This document shows positions 58,686 to 64,000 of a stretch of DNA of 64,000 nucleotides, one piece after another (within the stretch, counting starts at the first letter, position 1; every line of letters begins with the position of its first letter). This stretch comes from Salibaculum griseiflavum (lineage in GTDB: Bacteria > Pseudomonadota > Alphaproteobacteria > Rhodobacterales > Rhodobacteraceae), in assembly GCF_003129565.1 (NCBI RefSeq), contig NZ_QETF01000001.1, positions 248,001-312,000 of the forward strand, given 5' to 3'. The position numbers and the translations under genes are program-made. Under the pieces are notes generated by a model. That model did not search any database. It was given only the letters and a program-made list of their open reading frames with translations, and had not been told where the DNA came from.

Positions 58686-58813
58686 GCCGGAATGCGCGCT
58701 TTCCGTTTCCCGGCCCAGGCCCAGAGACCGAAAGCGCGCTGCCGTTCCTTTTGCCGGGATTGCCATGCAGCCCGTGGGTGCTAGTCTGCCGTCGACTGAC
58801 AAAGGAAAATTCC

Positions 58814-59653
58814 ATGCGCTCAATGCTTCGTTTTCTTATCCCGCTGGTTTCGTTGTTGGCCCTTCTGGGCTGTGCGCGTGGCCCTGAACTCGTCGGCGGC
58901 GTTCCGGTGAACGAAATCGTGGCCGACTACGGCGTGATCGAGGATGGCGACTACACCTTGCCACCTGTGCCGCCGGAATACCTGCAGGGCGTCAATCGCC
59001 GCACAGCAGTGGTCTATGACGGCCCCGAAGAGCCTGGCACGATCATCGTCGATCCCCATGCCAAGTTTCTCTATTTCGTCGAAGAGGATGGCGCGGCAAT
59101 GCGTTACCCGATCGCCGTCGGACGGGCTGGCTTGCGTATGCGCGGCGATTCCACGGTGGGCATGAAGCGGGAATGGCCGGGCTGGACGCCGACGGCCAAC
59201 ATGCTGCGGACCCAGCCCGAGGTTTACGGCCCCTTCGCCGAAGGGGTCGAGGGGGGGCTTGCCAGCCCCTTGGGCGCCCGGGCGCTCTACCTCTATCAGA
59301 ACGGGCGCGACACCTTCTTCCGGATTCATGGCACCAATGACCTGCCCTCGATAGGGAATTCCGGGTCGGCGGGCTGCATCCGGCTGTTCAACCATGATGT
59401 CATCGACCTTTACGAGCGGGTCGAGCGGGGCGCCCGCGTCACCGTGCGCACCTATGAGGAAAGCGTGGCCGCCGAAGGTGAGGAGCTGGCCAATCGCGGC
59501 GTTGAATTGCCGCCCACGATCATCGACCCGGAATCCATTTATGGCGCAACCGATGTCGAGGCCGGTGAGGACACGGAGGGCGAGGCGTCAGCCCAGGACG
59601 AAACCGTCGCCGACGCCGATCCATCTGCCGAGGCAGAGAGCGAAGACGCCTGA
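58814..59653 (+). CDS. L,D-transpeptidase (YkuD) lipoprotein
   Basis: 279 residues from the ATG after AAAGGA. Lipobox LLGC at the end of the signal. The YkuD domain (~80-215) has the catalytic motif 'IHGTNDLPSIGNSGSAGCIRL' with the Cys in SAGC. It makes 3-3 peptidoglycan cross-links or anchors proteins. A Glu/Ala/Asp-rich tail of ~60 residues follows and is likely disordered. Confidence 0.92.
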   Translation: MRSMLRFLIPLVSLLALLGCARGPELVGGVPVNEIVADYGVIEDGDYTLPPVPPEYLQGVNRRTAVVYDGPEEPGTIIVDPHAKFLYFVEEDGAAMRYPIAVGRAGLRMRGDSTVGMKREWPGWTPTANMLRTQPEVYGPFAEGVEGGLASPLGARALYLYQNGRDTFFRIHGTNDLPSIGNSGSAGCIRLFNHDVIDLYERVERGARVTVRTYEESVAAEGEELANRGVELPPTIIDPESIYGATDVEAGEDTEGEASAQDETVADADPSAEAESEDA

Positions 59654-59805
59654 TTTGACAGGTGGGGCCGCTATGGCGTTCCAGGTCGGCCCGGCATTCC
59701 GGGTCGGTCAGATCGGTGTGTCGGCATTTCCCGCTACACCGGTCGTCAAATTGCCATTAATATCGCTCATATCAGTTCAGACAGTTGAAACAGTGAGGAT
59801 TCCAA

Positions 59806-60882
59806 ATGGCCGATTTCGATGCCCAGATTCGCGAGTCGCAAACCCAGGTCCAGGACGCGCAGGCAAAGATCCAGGAGCTGACCAGCCGTATCGAGATCGC
59901 GCGCCAGAAGATGGAAAGCGGCGAAGACATCGCCGTTGATATCGAAAATGCCACTCTGGAAGACGTTCACGCCCATACCGAGGCGATGAACGCCAATATC
60001 GCGGAACTCATCATGGGTCTGGACGATGTCACCGCCGGTTTCCAGAAGGATTTCGACGAGATGCGGTCCAAGACCGGCTGGGAGACATTTGTCGGCTTCT
60101 TTTCCAAGGGCAAGGCCGAGTCGATGCGGCAAGAGCGGATGCGCACCGCCAGCGTGGATGACAAACTGCAGGACCTGATTTCCAAGTCCGATGTCATCAC
60201 CAGCCTTCTGGAGGGGCAGCTGGCCGTGCTCAACGAGCAAAAAGACAAGGTCGAGGGCAACTTGTCGGTCACCCTGGATGAGCGCGAGGCCGTGGTGGGC
60301 GAACTGGAGACCGCGCGAGCCGAGATTCTGGCGATGGACCCGAAGATCATCGAATTGGAGAACAAGATCAGCGTCGAACAGGATGCCGCTGCCCGCACCA
60401 AGCTGGAGACCGAGCTGGCCGAGTTGAACGCGAAATACAACGAACTGGTACAGTCCGAACAGGTGAAGCTGGCCAAGAGCCAGACGCTGGAACGCTATAT
60501 CGAGAAGGGCAAGACCTGGATCGACAGCCTGCAGAACCAGGCGGCGACACAGATGGTGCTGATCAACAAGCTGCAGACCGATACCAAGCAGCGCGTTGTG
60601 CTTTACGATGCGCTGACGAAGTCGTTGAAGACCGCGCAGCAGCAGGACGTGGCCCACCGGATCAACGAGATCGGGGTTAAGACGGACGAAGAGGCCCAGA
60701 CGGCCATGGCCGCCATCGGCTCAGCCACCAACGCCCGGATGGCCGACATGCTGGAAGCGCACGAGGATCACATGGTCTTTGCCCGCGAGGTGCTGGAACA
60801 GAAGGCCAAGGCGGATGAACGCTTTGTCCGCCGGTTCCAGAAGATCGTCGAGAAGCACGACAAGAACCTCTACGGCGCCTGA
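59806..60882 (+). CDS. Coiled-coil protein, TelA-like (first gene of AAA+ locus)
   Basis: 358 residues, highly charged and almost entirely helical, with heptad-rich stretches through most of its length and a less helical break near residue 90-105 ('TGWETFVGFFSKGKAESM'). No signal peptide or membrane segment, so cytoplasmic. The FFSKGKAES... and 'LLEGQLAVLNEQKDKVEGN' segments loosely recall TelA/toxic-anion-resistance proteins, which is a weak resemblance. TGAGGA lies six bases before the ATG. Two genes follow in the same direction after gaps of 36 and 48 bases. Confidence 0.72.
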   Translation: MADFDAQIRESQTQVQDAQAKIQELTSRIEIARQKMESGEDIAVDIENATLEDVHAHTEAMNANIAELIMGLDDVTAGFQKDFDEMRSKTGWETFVGFFSKGKAESMRQERMRTASVDDKLQDLISKSDVITSLLEGQLAVLNEQKDKVEGNLSVTLDEREAVVGELETARAEILAMDPKIIELENKISVEQDAAARTKLETELAELNAKYNELVQSEQVKLAKSQTLERYIEKGKTWIDSLQNQAATQMVLINKLQTDTKQRVVLYDALTKSLKTAQQQDVAHRINEIGVKTDEEAQTAMAAIGSATNARMADMLEAHEDHMVFAREVLEQKAKADERFVRRFQKIVEKHDKNLYGA

Positions 60883-60918
60883 TGCCGCCGGATTGCGCCA
60901 GACGAAAGGGCGCGGCCC

Positions 60919-62034
60919 ATGCCTGATACGCCGCTCGACCATTTCCAGCTTGAAGATACCCGCGTCACCCGGCGCTATTTCGACAAGTTCGAACGGATCA
61001 CCGGGCATCTGGCGCGGGTGGCGGCGAACATGGAGGTCGAGGGCCGGTTGTCGAAGCGCGAGGTCGAGGTGCTGGCCCGCTACCTGACCGCGTTGACCTT
61101 CACCTTTCGGGCCTTGGCCCACAAGTACCAGTTTTCGGGCCGTTTCGCCCATGCGGGCAAGCTGACATTCGACCGGGTCGAAAGCGGCTTTCCGGTGGCC
61201 ACGGAACTGATGACAATGGCCAACGACGCGGCACAGGCGGACCGGCACCTTGCGGGGATGCGCACCGAAGAGCAGCTGAAAGATGAAATGGTCCGCGTCA
61301 TCCTGCGTGACCGAGAGATCCCGACAAAGCTGCAATACGCCCTGTCGCAAAGGCTCTATTACGAGGAACTGGCCCGGGGCGAGCTGTTCTGGGCGCGCAA
61401 CGATCCGCAGGCAATCTGGCTGGGCGATGACGCGGACCGGCGCCGGTTCCTGATCCATTGGGCGGTCTATGACAGCCAGATCAACCTACCGACGATCTAC
61501 CTGATGGAGTTGGAGGATTCCGGACGGGTCGGCCTGCCCAAGGACGACCGCCGCTGGCCCGAGGTTCAGGCCCACCTGATGGCGCAGGCTTTGGCGCATC
61601 TGAAACTGCTGACGATTGCCCGCGGCTTCGACAAGGATTTCGACGATCTGCACCCGAAACGGCTGCGCCGGTTCCATGTCGGCCCGATGTATTCCCATGC
61701 CTTCACCCGGCAGGCCGGTCCGCTGCGTGAGGTTCTGGAACTGGCCAAGGCCCCCGAGGGCGAGGACTGGGCGCTGGTCTGGACCGAGGAGGAACTGGTC
61801 AGCGATCGTGTCGAGCGGGAGAAATCCGGCTGGTTCGGGTCGGTGGAACGACAGGTCTTCGCACTGGATCCGTTCGCCGGACAGGGGGCTGATACCGGGG
61901 CGACGCGGATGGAACGGTCGATCATCCTGCCGCAGCGGCCCTATCAGGCGCTGGAAGACCGCAACCCGCCGGGGTTCCGTGACGTCCGCAAATTCGTGGT
62001 CAGTCCCGCGGGGCGGGTTTTGAGTTATCGTTGA
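60919..62034 (+). CDS. DUF6638-like protein (second gene of AAA+ locus)
   Basis: 371 residues, mostly helical, without membrane segments. The N-terminal ~120 residues are helical ('RYFDKFERITGHLARVAANMEVEGRLSKREVEVLARYLTAL'). The middle contains 'IWLGDDADRRRFLIHWAVYDSQINLPTIYLMELEDSG' and the C-terminus 'RMERSIILPQRPYQALEDRNPPG'. I believe it belongs to DUF6638, a family of unknown function; that name is from memory. AAAGGG precedes the ATG. Conservation next to an AAA+ ATPase suggests it is an adaptor or substrate-recognition protein. Confidence 0.62.
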   Translation: MPDTPLDHFQLEDTRVTRRYFDKFERITGHLARVAANMEVEGRLSKREVEVLARYLTALTFTFRALAHKYQFSGRFAHAGKLTFDRVESGFPVATELMTMANDAAQADRHLAGMRTEEQLKDEMVRVILRDREIPTKLQYALSQRLYYEELARGELFWARNDPQAIWLGDDADRRRFLIHWAVYDSQINLPTIYLMELEDSGRVGLPKDDRRWPEVQAHLMAQALAHLKLLTIARGFDKDFDDLHPKRLRRFHVGPMYSHAFTRQAGPLREVLELAKAPEGEDWALVWTEEELVSDRVEREKSGWFGSVERQVFALDPFAGQGADTGATRMERSIILPQRPYQALEDRNPPGFRDVRKFVVSPAGRVLSYR

Positions 62035-62038
62035 GGTG

Positions 62039-62062
62039 GACCGGAATTCTGGAATTCCGGTC
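62039..62062. repeat. Intergenic AATTC/GAATT-type hairpin, copy 3
   Basis: GACCGGAATTC-TG-GAATTCCGGTC, a perfect 11-bp stem, five bases after the DUF6638-like stop and 20 bases before the next ATG. With no T-run it may tune expression between the two genes. Confidence 0.65.
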
Positions 62063-62082
62063 GTCCCGCAGAGAGGTATGAG

Positions 62083-64000
62083 ATGAGCCAGACAAGCGAT
62101 CAGATGGAGCTTCGCGAAGAAGACATCGTCAAGCACTACGAGGCTGCGACAGCGATGTTGCAGGGCTTTGACCACGCCCCCCGGATTGCCAAGCCGAAAG
62201 AGGAGGCACCGAAGGAACGCTCCAGCGGGATCGGCACGCGGCGGGCGTTCCGCTCGACCACGCCAGGACTTGTCACGCGGCGGCAGGTGCGGACCGAGGG
62301 CGTGCAACTGGTGGCGCGGGTCGAGGAAAGTGACGGCGGCGATGCGCTGATGTCCCCAACGCAGGCGACGGTGCTGCACGGGCTGCGCCGGGCGCTGGCC
62401 ATCGCGCTGGCCATGGGCGAGCAATATTCCGAGCGCACCGGCCTTGCCGACCTGAAACGCGCCAACCTCGAAGGCAGTCTGCCTGCGGGCAAGAAGACCG
62501 AGTTCAGCGAATTGCTGACCGCCGAGGCTTTGGCCGTCGCCTATACCTTCGCCAACGCCACGGCCTTCCTGATCGCGCCGCATGCGAGTGAGGAAACGGT
62601 CGAGATCGGCGAGGTCGAGGAGGTGCTGACCGACAACGCGCAACTGGCGCTGCATGGCGCGCTGTGGGAGTTGGACCAGGACATCGGGGCGTTCGTGACG
62701 ACCGAGAGCAGGCTCGTCCCGACGGTCCTCGCCTTTGCCGAACAGCTGATGGCGAAACTCGCGGGGCGCGCCAGCACGGCGGCGCTGCTGGAGCCGTTCG
62801 AGGGCGCGACCTGGAAGGTTGAGGCCGATGACCTGACCATTCGCGGCTCCACGCCTGCGCGGGCGGCGAAATCGCAGAGCCTGACCATGACGTTCAAGAA
62901 ACCGAACGAGGTCGTGGGCAACCACATCGCGAAATACCAGGCGCTGAAGCTTTCCAAGATGCTGATGGCCTATGATTTCGACCGGCGCCTGAACCCGTTC
63001 GCCGAACTCGGCGGGTTCATCTTCACCTTCATGGGTGACGGCGCGCCGGGGACGGGGAAGACGACGCTCATTCAAATGATGGCAGGGCTGATCAACGACT
63101 ATTGCGGCGCTGCGGGCTACACGTTCCGCTACCAGAATTTCGGCATCGACAATATCGACAGCTACCAGGGCAAGTCGGGCCAGAACGCCCGGGCCTTCAT
63201 CAACAACGTGATCGAACCGGGCGTGATCGGCTTCGGCACCATCGACGATATCGACCAGATCGCGGGCAAGCGCGGCGACCGACAATCCAGCGCGGGCCAG
63301 CAAGAGGTCACGGCGGTCTTCATGGAGGCCTTTGCCGGGGCCAACACGGTGGTGCGCGGCAATTGCACCTTTGGCATGTTTTCCAACTACCCCGAGAATG
63401 TCGACGACGCCCTGCGCCAGCGGGCAGGAGCCCGCTTCCTCGTCGACGGGCCGCAAACGCGCGAGGATTATATCGACATCCTCTACCTGCTGATGGGCAA
63501 GAACCATTCGATCCCCGTGGGCGAGCACGAAGTGTTCGCGGCGCAGGAGATCAAGAAGGCCGTTGAGGCCAGTTTCGAGAGCCATTCGCGGCCCCATGAG
63601 GAGGGGCTTTTGAAGGTGTTCGAGCAGGTCCGCTCCGAGATCGGCGAACTGGACACGATCGCCAAGCTGGGCACCTACCTGAAGGGCATCCAGGAGGCAG
63701 ACGAACGGTTCACGGGCCGGGCAATCAAGAACATCACCGACGCGGTGAAGGTCCGCGCGATGGATTTCGAACTGCCCGATGAATGGATGGAGAACCCCGA
63801 GCTTTTCGTCTGGAAGGACTACGACACCAAAAGGGACATGATTTCCGAACTGCGCCAGCCGATCACCATCGACATGGTGATCCAGGAAATCAACCGCTAC
63901 GCGGACAGCGAATTCCGCTATGCCGACAAGTCCGACGAGGTGGCGATTGAGGGCATGGTCCGCGACTACGCCCGACAGGAAGAGGCGAAGCGGCGATATC
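62083..64000 (+). CDS. AAA+ ATPase with N-terminal extension (cut by window edge)
   Basis: At least 639 residues; continues past the window. The ATG is six bases after AGAGG. Residues 1-~300 are a helical non-AAA region. The AAA core has Walker A 'GDGAPGTGKTTL' (~319-328), then 'VIGFGTIDDIDQIAGKRGDRQ' where the expected DE reads DD (388-389), and sensor 1/arginine finger 'MFSNYPENVDDALRQRAGARF'. The fold resembles classical FtsH/katanin-type AAA proteins (DEID-x-IAGKRG). No protease or membrane part is visible in the available portion. Substrate unknown. Confidence 0.85.
   Translation, partial: MSQTSDQMELREEDIVKHYEAATAMLQGFDHAPRIAKPKEEAPKERSSGIGTRRAFRSTTPGLVTRRQVRTEGVQLVARVEESDGGDALMSPTQATVLHGLRRALAIALAMGEQYSERTGLADLKRANLEGSLPAGKKTEFSELLTAEALAVAYTFANATAFLIAPHASEETVEIGEVEEVLTDNAQLALHGALWELDQDIGAFVTTESRLVPTVLAFAEQLMAKLAGRASTAALLEPFEGATWKVEADDLTIRGSTPARAAKSQSLTMTFKKPNEVVGNHIAKYQALKLSKMLMAYDFDRRLNPFAELGGFIFTFMGDGAPGTGKTTLIQMMAGLINDYCGAAGYTFRYQNFGIDNIDSYQGKSGQNARAFINNVIEPGVIGFGTIDDIDQIAGKRGDRQSSAGQQEVTAVFMEAFAGANTVVRGNCTFGMFSNYPENVDDALRQRAGARFLVDGPQTREDYIDILYLLMGKNHSIPVGEHEVFAAQEIKKAVEASFESHSRPHEEGLLKVFEQVRSEIGELDTIAKLGTYLKGIQEADERFTGRAIKNITDAVKVRAMDFELPDEWMENPELFVWKDYDTKRDMISELRQPITIDMVIQEINRYADSEFRYADKSDEVAIEGMVRDYARQEEAKRRY

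Follow-up and report, generated by a model that had tools for sequence, protein, structure and literature searches.

Gene content of the locus

The right-hand end of a 64,000-nucleotide stretch of the Salibaculum griseiflavum genome (“the window”; positions 248,001 to 312,000 of contig NZ_QETF01000001.1; genome size 3.27 Mb) carries three adjacent genes on one strand. We call them A, B and C, and together with a fourth gene, E, just outside the window, they are the subject of this analysis. An earlier note, made from the letters of the window, had read them as an operon encoding a coiled-coil protein, a helical protein and an AAA+ ATPase. The open reading frame (ORF) coordinates agree with the note on three same-strand genes with gaps of 36 bases (A-B) and 48 bases (B-C). 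The operon was also expected to continue past the edge, and it does: the 3' flank holds, in order, D (a small hydrophobic ORF of 114 aa), E (449 aa, DUF6638) and F (224 aa, DUF1523). The features in the window are these:

Region 5' of A, 59654..59805, + strand: place of an operator-like element of relatives, degenerate in the window's own genome.
Gene A, 59806..60882, + strand: 358 aa, all-helical, with long helices at residues 117-190 and 194-316; the most conserved block lies at about 221-290, and about 22 residues within 271-302 are absent from the orphan copies described below.
Gene B, 60919..62034, + strand: 371 aa, no known family; N-terminal half helical, C-terminal half beta-sheet.
Gene C, 62083..64000 (window end), + strand: classical AAA+ ATPase of 644 aa with its stop codon 17 bases beyond the window; N-terminal region of about 300 aa, Walker A at 318-327, pore-loop Tyr361, Walker B Asp388-Asp389, Asn435, and Arg445, Arg447 and Arg451.

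Judged by an order that is conserved among relatives, A, B, C, E and F are real genes and not chance frames. None of A, B and C has a 19-residue stretch with a Kyte-Doolittle mean above 1.6, in line with the earlier statement that they lack a membrane segment, and by hydropathy E is likewise without a transmembrane (TM) stretch.

The gene set is conserved as a unit

To describe the neighborhoods we used the best 80 of 452 stretches encoding a relative of C (the “named loci”, a set that leans to near relatives). A-B-C-E-F occur in this order and on one strand in 73 of them; of the seven exceptions, five are truncated by a contig edge. At one further locus (L116), A, B and C are together and E lies elsewhere in the genome. 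The earlier claim that the genes belong together is thus strongly upheld against the alternative it named, that they are not conserved side by side.

Similar results were obtained from whole genomes. C occurs in 20 of 61 (the window's own and 60 relatives), and the set A-B-C-E-F is complete and ordered in 17 of these 20; contig ends interrupt it in the remaining three (G003, G025 and G031). In profile searches, 7 of 385 genomes of the class had A and 20 of 299 genomes of the phylum had E, counting the window's own genome both times. Of the 20 genomes that these searches added, we fetched 17, nine of them outside the family, and A-B-C-E were ordered in all 17 loci. A-B-C-E as a conserved module is well supported, and the four-protein set is kept together in many marine and soil bacteria.

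Transfer outside the Alphaproteobacteria

Complete A-B-C-E-F sets were also found outside the Alphaproteobacteria, in Halomonas sp. ALS9 (L172) and in genome G460 (L084), nested within Rhodobacteraceae-type copies (this label and “Rhizobiaceae-type” below are inferred from named matches). G460 probably belongs to the Gammaproteobacteria, because it pairs with the named Halomonas. For trees we took 92 loci (every second named locus), of which 85 were kept. The FastTree trees of A, B, C and E each placed L084 and L172 beside L093 and L174 (Leisingera) with support of 0.946-0.99, and the pairwise distance matrices of the four proteins correlated at r 0.970-0.984. Because the four trees place the Halomonas-type pair alike, A-B-C-E appear to have moved together as a unit by horizontal transfer. 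Such spread is rare in the class of G460, as only G460 of its 274 genomes encodes C (E up to 1e-20).

Further carriers are four Vibrio plasmid records of 882-938 kb; in the two examined, A-B-C-E are followed by mfd. On these two circular plasmids, of V. parahaemolyticus and V. vulnificus (L198 and L201; 0.88-0.93 Mb), a gene of the RNase H family lies near A-B-C-E and mfd.

The presence of the gene set on Vibrio megaplasmids would suit a function in anti-phage defence or on another mobile element, and so would weak PADLOC matches of A (REase_II, E 6.2e-4; LmuB, E 0.025) and of C (TRIP13, E 6.7e-4; IetA, E 0.0072), together with matches of C to AAA families of PHROG, such as a clamp loader (E 7e-7). 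However, the PADLOC matches fit a general AAA or coiled-coil likeness, those to PHROG families are to the AAA domain, and PADLOC gave no match for either B or E. Gene order is moreover stable over two families. Searches of 50,697 phage records (tblastn, E up to 0.01) and of 88 pattern matches in viral contigs turned up no relative of C, and a phage origin was rejected on this ground. A defence function is extremely improbable.

C is a classical AAA ATPase with a variant Walker B

C matched PF00004 (AAA) over residues 320-453 (E 9.7e-12; 45.9 bits against a gathering cut-off of 21.2). This span agrees with the N-terminus of about 300 non-AAA residues described earlier, and that region has no Pfam domain. 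In 14 diverse C rows we found the Walker A residues G323-T324-G325-K326-T327, Y361-Q362-G363, the sensor 1 residue N435 and the arginine fingers R445, R447 and R451 to be invariant. Y361 aligned with the pore-loop-1 tyrosine of i-AAA and AFG2, and N435 and the arginines were likewise aligned to Protein Data Bank (PDB) chains. Walker A, a pore-loop tyrosine, sensor 1 and arginine fingers are the equipment of threading, ring-forming AAA proteins, and the earlier reading of C as an AAA of the remodeller type is borne out by them.

The Walker B motif departs from this pattern. Residues D388-D389 were invariant in alignments of 14, 18 and 21 rows, in place of the canonical Asp-Glu pair. An aspartate at the position of the catalytic glutamate is unusual within the classical AAA and is known in other AAA+ clades; Asp389 marks C as a variant, and C remains an AAA. 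The aspartate is common to Rhodobacteraceae-type, Rhizobiaceae-type and Vibrio copies.

The best-aligning PDB chains for C were i-AAA, fidgetin-like 1, AFG2, katanin and Vps4, the top one being the ATPase domain of an i-AAA protease. Pfam searches at E up to 1 gave no MIT, Vps4_C or peptidase M41 match in C.

A is a long helical protein with a conserved, poorly modelled region

The AlphaFold model of A consists of two long helices (predicted local distance difference test (pLDDT) 70.7; alignment of 66 of the 75 usable named rows besides the window). Conservation is highest at residues 221-290 (0.77-0.90 by block), along which pLDDT falls from 87 to 46; over all blocks, conservation and pLDDT correlate at r = -0.30. 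High conservation with low model confidence is as expected of a partner-binding region, and in the model residues 221-290 would fit a region that folds on a partner.

Structural matches to A reached Z 13.9 and were a mixture of long-helix proteins (MukF, SMC, SNAREs, alpha-pore toxins, F-BAR) that names no family. In PDB profile searches with A, B and E, nothing fell below E 0.18.

A helical protein paired with a classical AAA recalls ESCRT-III and Vps4, where A would form helical filaments on a membrane and C would disassemble them. The model of A as a long helical hairpin and the alignment of C with Vps4, katanin and fidgetin chains, among others, agree with this. On the other hand, A has no match to PF04012 (Pfam, E up to 1), on which account its identification as PspA/ESCRT-III was rejected, C has no MIT or Vps4_C match, and the fold matches of A are generic long-helix proteins. 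A true ESCRT-III/Vps4-like pair is very unlikely. The window's own genome gave no PspA match at E 0.001.

The earlier note had also seen a likeness between A and TelA. TelA is a long helical protein, as is A, and a remote TelA-family protein might act in a response to metal, toxic-anion or envelope stress. We compared profiles of 31 TelA and 157 A rows (rows out of length and five orphan copies were dropped, and hhalign filtered A to 66). The score was 21.6 (E 0.07; 0.07-0.14 across comparisons) over about 20 columns only, against a shuffle mean of 16.1 (standard deviation 2.6), with one of 40 column shuffles as high, and reversed TelA scored 17.3. The resemblance is a short motif, KTGWExFVG / RxWWEKLLGR. 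Among viral structures, three of the top 34 matches to A carry tellurite-resistance or TelA-like names, in the company of many unrelated helical proteins. Set against these hints, A has no match to PF05816 (Pfam, E up to 1), its model is of low confidence, and true TelA is a separate gene in 34 of 61 genomes (the window's own and 33 of 60 relatives). TelA was rejected as the identity of A, and what survives of the earlier suggestion is a weak profile-profile hint. A TelA-type stress role seems highly doubtful, and a literature search on TelA, AAA ATPases and stress returned nothing on A-B-C-E among the matches listed.

B is a two-part protein without a named family

Neither Pfam nor NCBIfam nor PADLOC gave a match to B at E up to 1, and PHROGs gave only matches at E 0.19 or worse. 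Its predicted model is confident (pLDDT 89.8, predicted template modelling score 0.88; alignment of 72 of the 77 named rows besides the window), with a helical N-terminal half and a C-terminal sheet in the order b-b-a-a-b-b at about 174-303. Two earlier descriptions of B fail here. It is not simply helical, as a large half of the model is beta-sheet, and it is not DUF6638-like: hhalign found no relation between the B and E profiles, and the DUF6638 gene is E, just outside the window.

VIA-align listed 50 entries for B, the best being a fructose bisphosphatase, of a fold other than the T-fold, at Z 5.0. By our own count, 39 of the 50 are T-fold enzymes, a grouping that comprises uricase, dihydroneopterin aldolase, QueF and GTP cyclohydrolase I; many are uricase, and they match residues of about 161-334 at Z 3.4-4.8. 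The best T-fold row has Z 4.8 over 120 residues at 3.9 A, in a range that, as the tool warns, may reflect a common arrangement. Foldseek with the model of B returned no hit at E 0.001 in PDB or BFVD. We regard the T-fold likeness of the modelled B as a lead and not as membership.

E, F and the membrane neighbors

E matched PF20343 (DUF6638) over all profile positions (1-439 of 439; 854.5 bits, E 2e-257). DUF6638 was not found in the literature searched, which is no proof that nothing is in print. F (DUF1523) is present in 75 of the 80 named loci and in 12 of 17 further loci. In 70 of 75 named loci more than 250 bases separate C and E, and an ORF of at least 60 aa with a TM-like stretch lies in 55 of these 70 gaps; examples lie at 6118-6462 in L002 and 8935-9732 in L147. 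In L034, L084 and L172 there is no such gap, and the two genes share 4 bases instead.

The recurrence of F and of the TM-like ORFs is consistent with a reading in which A would be an adaptor or scaffold and the client a membrane protein, either the DUF1523 or DUF2333 partner or an envelope complex. C would then extract or assemble membrane-linked complexes in the manner of Msp1, or of FtsH without its protease. The best PDB match of C, the i-AAA domain, agrees with this, as do DUF2333 in 13 of 13 intact Rhizobiaceae-type loci fetched and the retention of A next to DUF2333 at loci that lack B, C and E (both below). C itself, however, has neither a TM segment nor a protease domain, and the two Vibrio loci contain neither DUF1523 nor DUF2333. 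We consider a membrane client possible but rather unlikely.

Rhizobiaceae-type loci and orphan copies of A

Among 151 Rhizobiaceae-type genomes, A is present in 94 and C in 88, and A accompanies C in 88 of 88. The six genomes with A only are four orphans (below), G963, where the match (92 residues, E 8e-4) is probably spurious, and G1053, which is 68% complete. We fetched 17 of the 94 genomes with A. Twelve of the 13 non-orphan loci have A-B-C-E followed by a DUF2333 gene replacing DUF1523, and the thirteenth (L248) is cut by a contig end. Counting intact Rhizobiaceae-type loci only, A-B-C-E are ordered in 13 of 13 fetched. In S. meliloti, which has the order A-B-C-E plus DUF2333, two genes separate C and E, one with an endonuclease domain and one for an IS4-type transposase.

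Five orphan loci, on R. leguminosarum pSK03 and in the four genomes, consist, in order, of thymidine kinase, an A copy (A') and DUF2333. No B, C or E lies within the surrounding 18-21 kb, and the four genomes encode no C at E up to 1e-20. The SLKTAQQQDVAHRINEIG stretch of A is nearly invariant where C is present, and it is kept in none of the five orphan A'. In the alignment three of them have a gap of 22 residues at about 271-292; the other two (L233 and L234) have one of 22 residues at about 281-302 with unlike sequence before it, and are also without part of the long helices. The five orphans fall into one group in the DUF2333 tree (82/85); the thymidine-kinase tree requires two changes, placed on branches of weak support.

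An operator-like element upstream of A

GATGTAA occurs upstream of A in 39 of 76 named loci, mostly as an inverted repeat GATGTAAAT-N4/5-GTAACATT (loci L100-L177). The 7-mer was found in 39 of 77 regions compared with at most 10 in shuffles, a count that related strains inflate. A -10-like TATAT or TATCTT follows the inverted repeat. In the window's own genome the repeat is degenerate (59654-59805).

A pattern search with up to two mismatches gave matches in 15 of 16 genomes, and the reversed control gave five hits in four genomes. There were 12 other operator-like places. The eight that we fetched (the second group, L299-L306) all lie beside one conserved gene in eight genomes, often with tandem sites. 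That gene is DUF2852 in the two cases scanned, and an RDD gene and an ATE-family transferase gene adjoin it.

A sigma-70 promoter scan gave one site versus 1.5 expected, and LexA, CtrA, sigma-E, RpoH and sigma-54 operator patterns were not enriched upstream of A. A CenR site was rejected: its motif, TGA-N8-TGA (PMC9275681), differs from the inverted repeat upstream of A.

Other genes of the neighborhood

The genes 5' of A are an L,D-transpeptidase (YkuD) gene and an M24 peptidase gene (Pfam), and these neighbors vary among relatives. The YkuD gene (58751-59653, same strand) is directly 5' of A here and in some relatives; elsewhere it is not at that place. Beyond F lies a frame on the opposite strand that looks like an aldehyde dehydrogenase (named by eye). 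Rfam gave no match across the 20-kb flank. The best named match to C was from the alphaproteobacterial metagenome-assembled genome GSL.Bin4 (92%).

A putative AAA remodeller acting on or through A

On balance, we slightly favor the reading that A, B, C and E form a single AAA remodeller that acts on or through A. It draws on what the loci show directly: the shared order and co-occurrence of the genes, the 4-base overlaps of C and E, the joint absence of B, C and E from the orphan loci together with the altered A' there, the matching trees, the AAA motifs of C with the Y361-Q-G pore loop of i-AAA and AFG2, and the conserved block of A in which model confidence drops. C would form a ring, presumably a hexamer, hydrolyze ATP and draw a polypeptide through its pore. 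A would most likely be the threaded polypeptide or a factor that hands over a client, and its residues 221-290, above all about 270-292, would be a contact with B, C or E. B and E may be dedicated cofactors that recruit A to the ring or position it there. Membrane proteins that differ between lineages (in Rhodobacterales DUF1523 and small TM proteins, in Rhizobiaceae DUF2333) could dock the machine to the cytoplasmic membrane.

Several points weigh against this proposal. The pore loop of C argues for threading, yet it does not name the client, and the Walker B aspartate might slow or otherwise alter hydrolysis. In the orphan genomes A persists although the ATPase is missing, and it therefore has, or once had, a separate use. 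The orphans form one group in the DUF2333 tree, so B, C and E may have been lost in a single event, and the deletion in A may likewise count once. The case for the segment at about 270-292 as a contact with B, C or E comes from one or two events, and the edges of the deletion depend on the alignment. A shallow alignment may be all that lies behind the low confidence of the A model. The link to the membrane comes only from neighboring genes, and the two Vibrio loci do without DUF1523 and DUF2333. Shared descent, too, would give protein trees that match and correlate. Finally, at one named locus (L173) C is alone and E-F are on another contig; A and B were not searched for elsewhere in it.

A more specific version would be a bacterial machine not described before, in which the AAA ring disassembles or cycles a helical, membrane-associated assembly of A. 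It would work like ESCRT-III and Vps4 with unrelated A, B and E, membrane partners swapped between lineages and a handle of about 22 residues on A. This picture is speculative, and we think it distinctly unlikely.

If the remodeller reading is true, Rhodobacterales and Rhizobiales share a widely conserved, energy-driven machine so far without a function. The orphan loci supply a hypothesis for its interface (A residues of about 270-292), and the swap of DUF1523 and DUF2333 beside one core provides a handle on two further uncharacterised families.

Comparison with known systems

The b-b-a-a-b-b stretch in the model of B weakly resembles the T-fold enzymes, from which B differs by its helical N-terminal half and by having no sequence match to them. 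A resembles TelA (PF05816) in one short motif; it differs in that there is no significant sequence match and TelA has its own gene in the same genomes.

Operons of PspA/Snf7 and AAA ATPases (Ravi et al. 2024, PMC11237479) likewise encode a helical protein beside a classical AAA ATPase. A differs in not being PspA/Snf7 by Pfam, and the A-B-C-E set is not described in the part of that paper available.

C differs from the FtsH/YME1, fidgetin, katanin and Vps4 groups by its unassigned N-terminus, the lack of an MIT, Vps4_C, protease or TM part, the invariant Walker B aspartate and its other operon partners. With all of these groups, on the other hand, it shares Walker A, the second region of homology and an aromatic pore loop 1.

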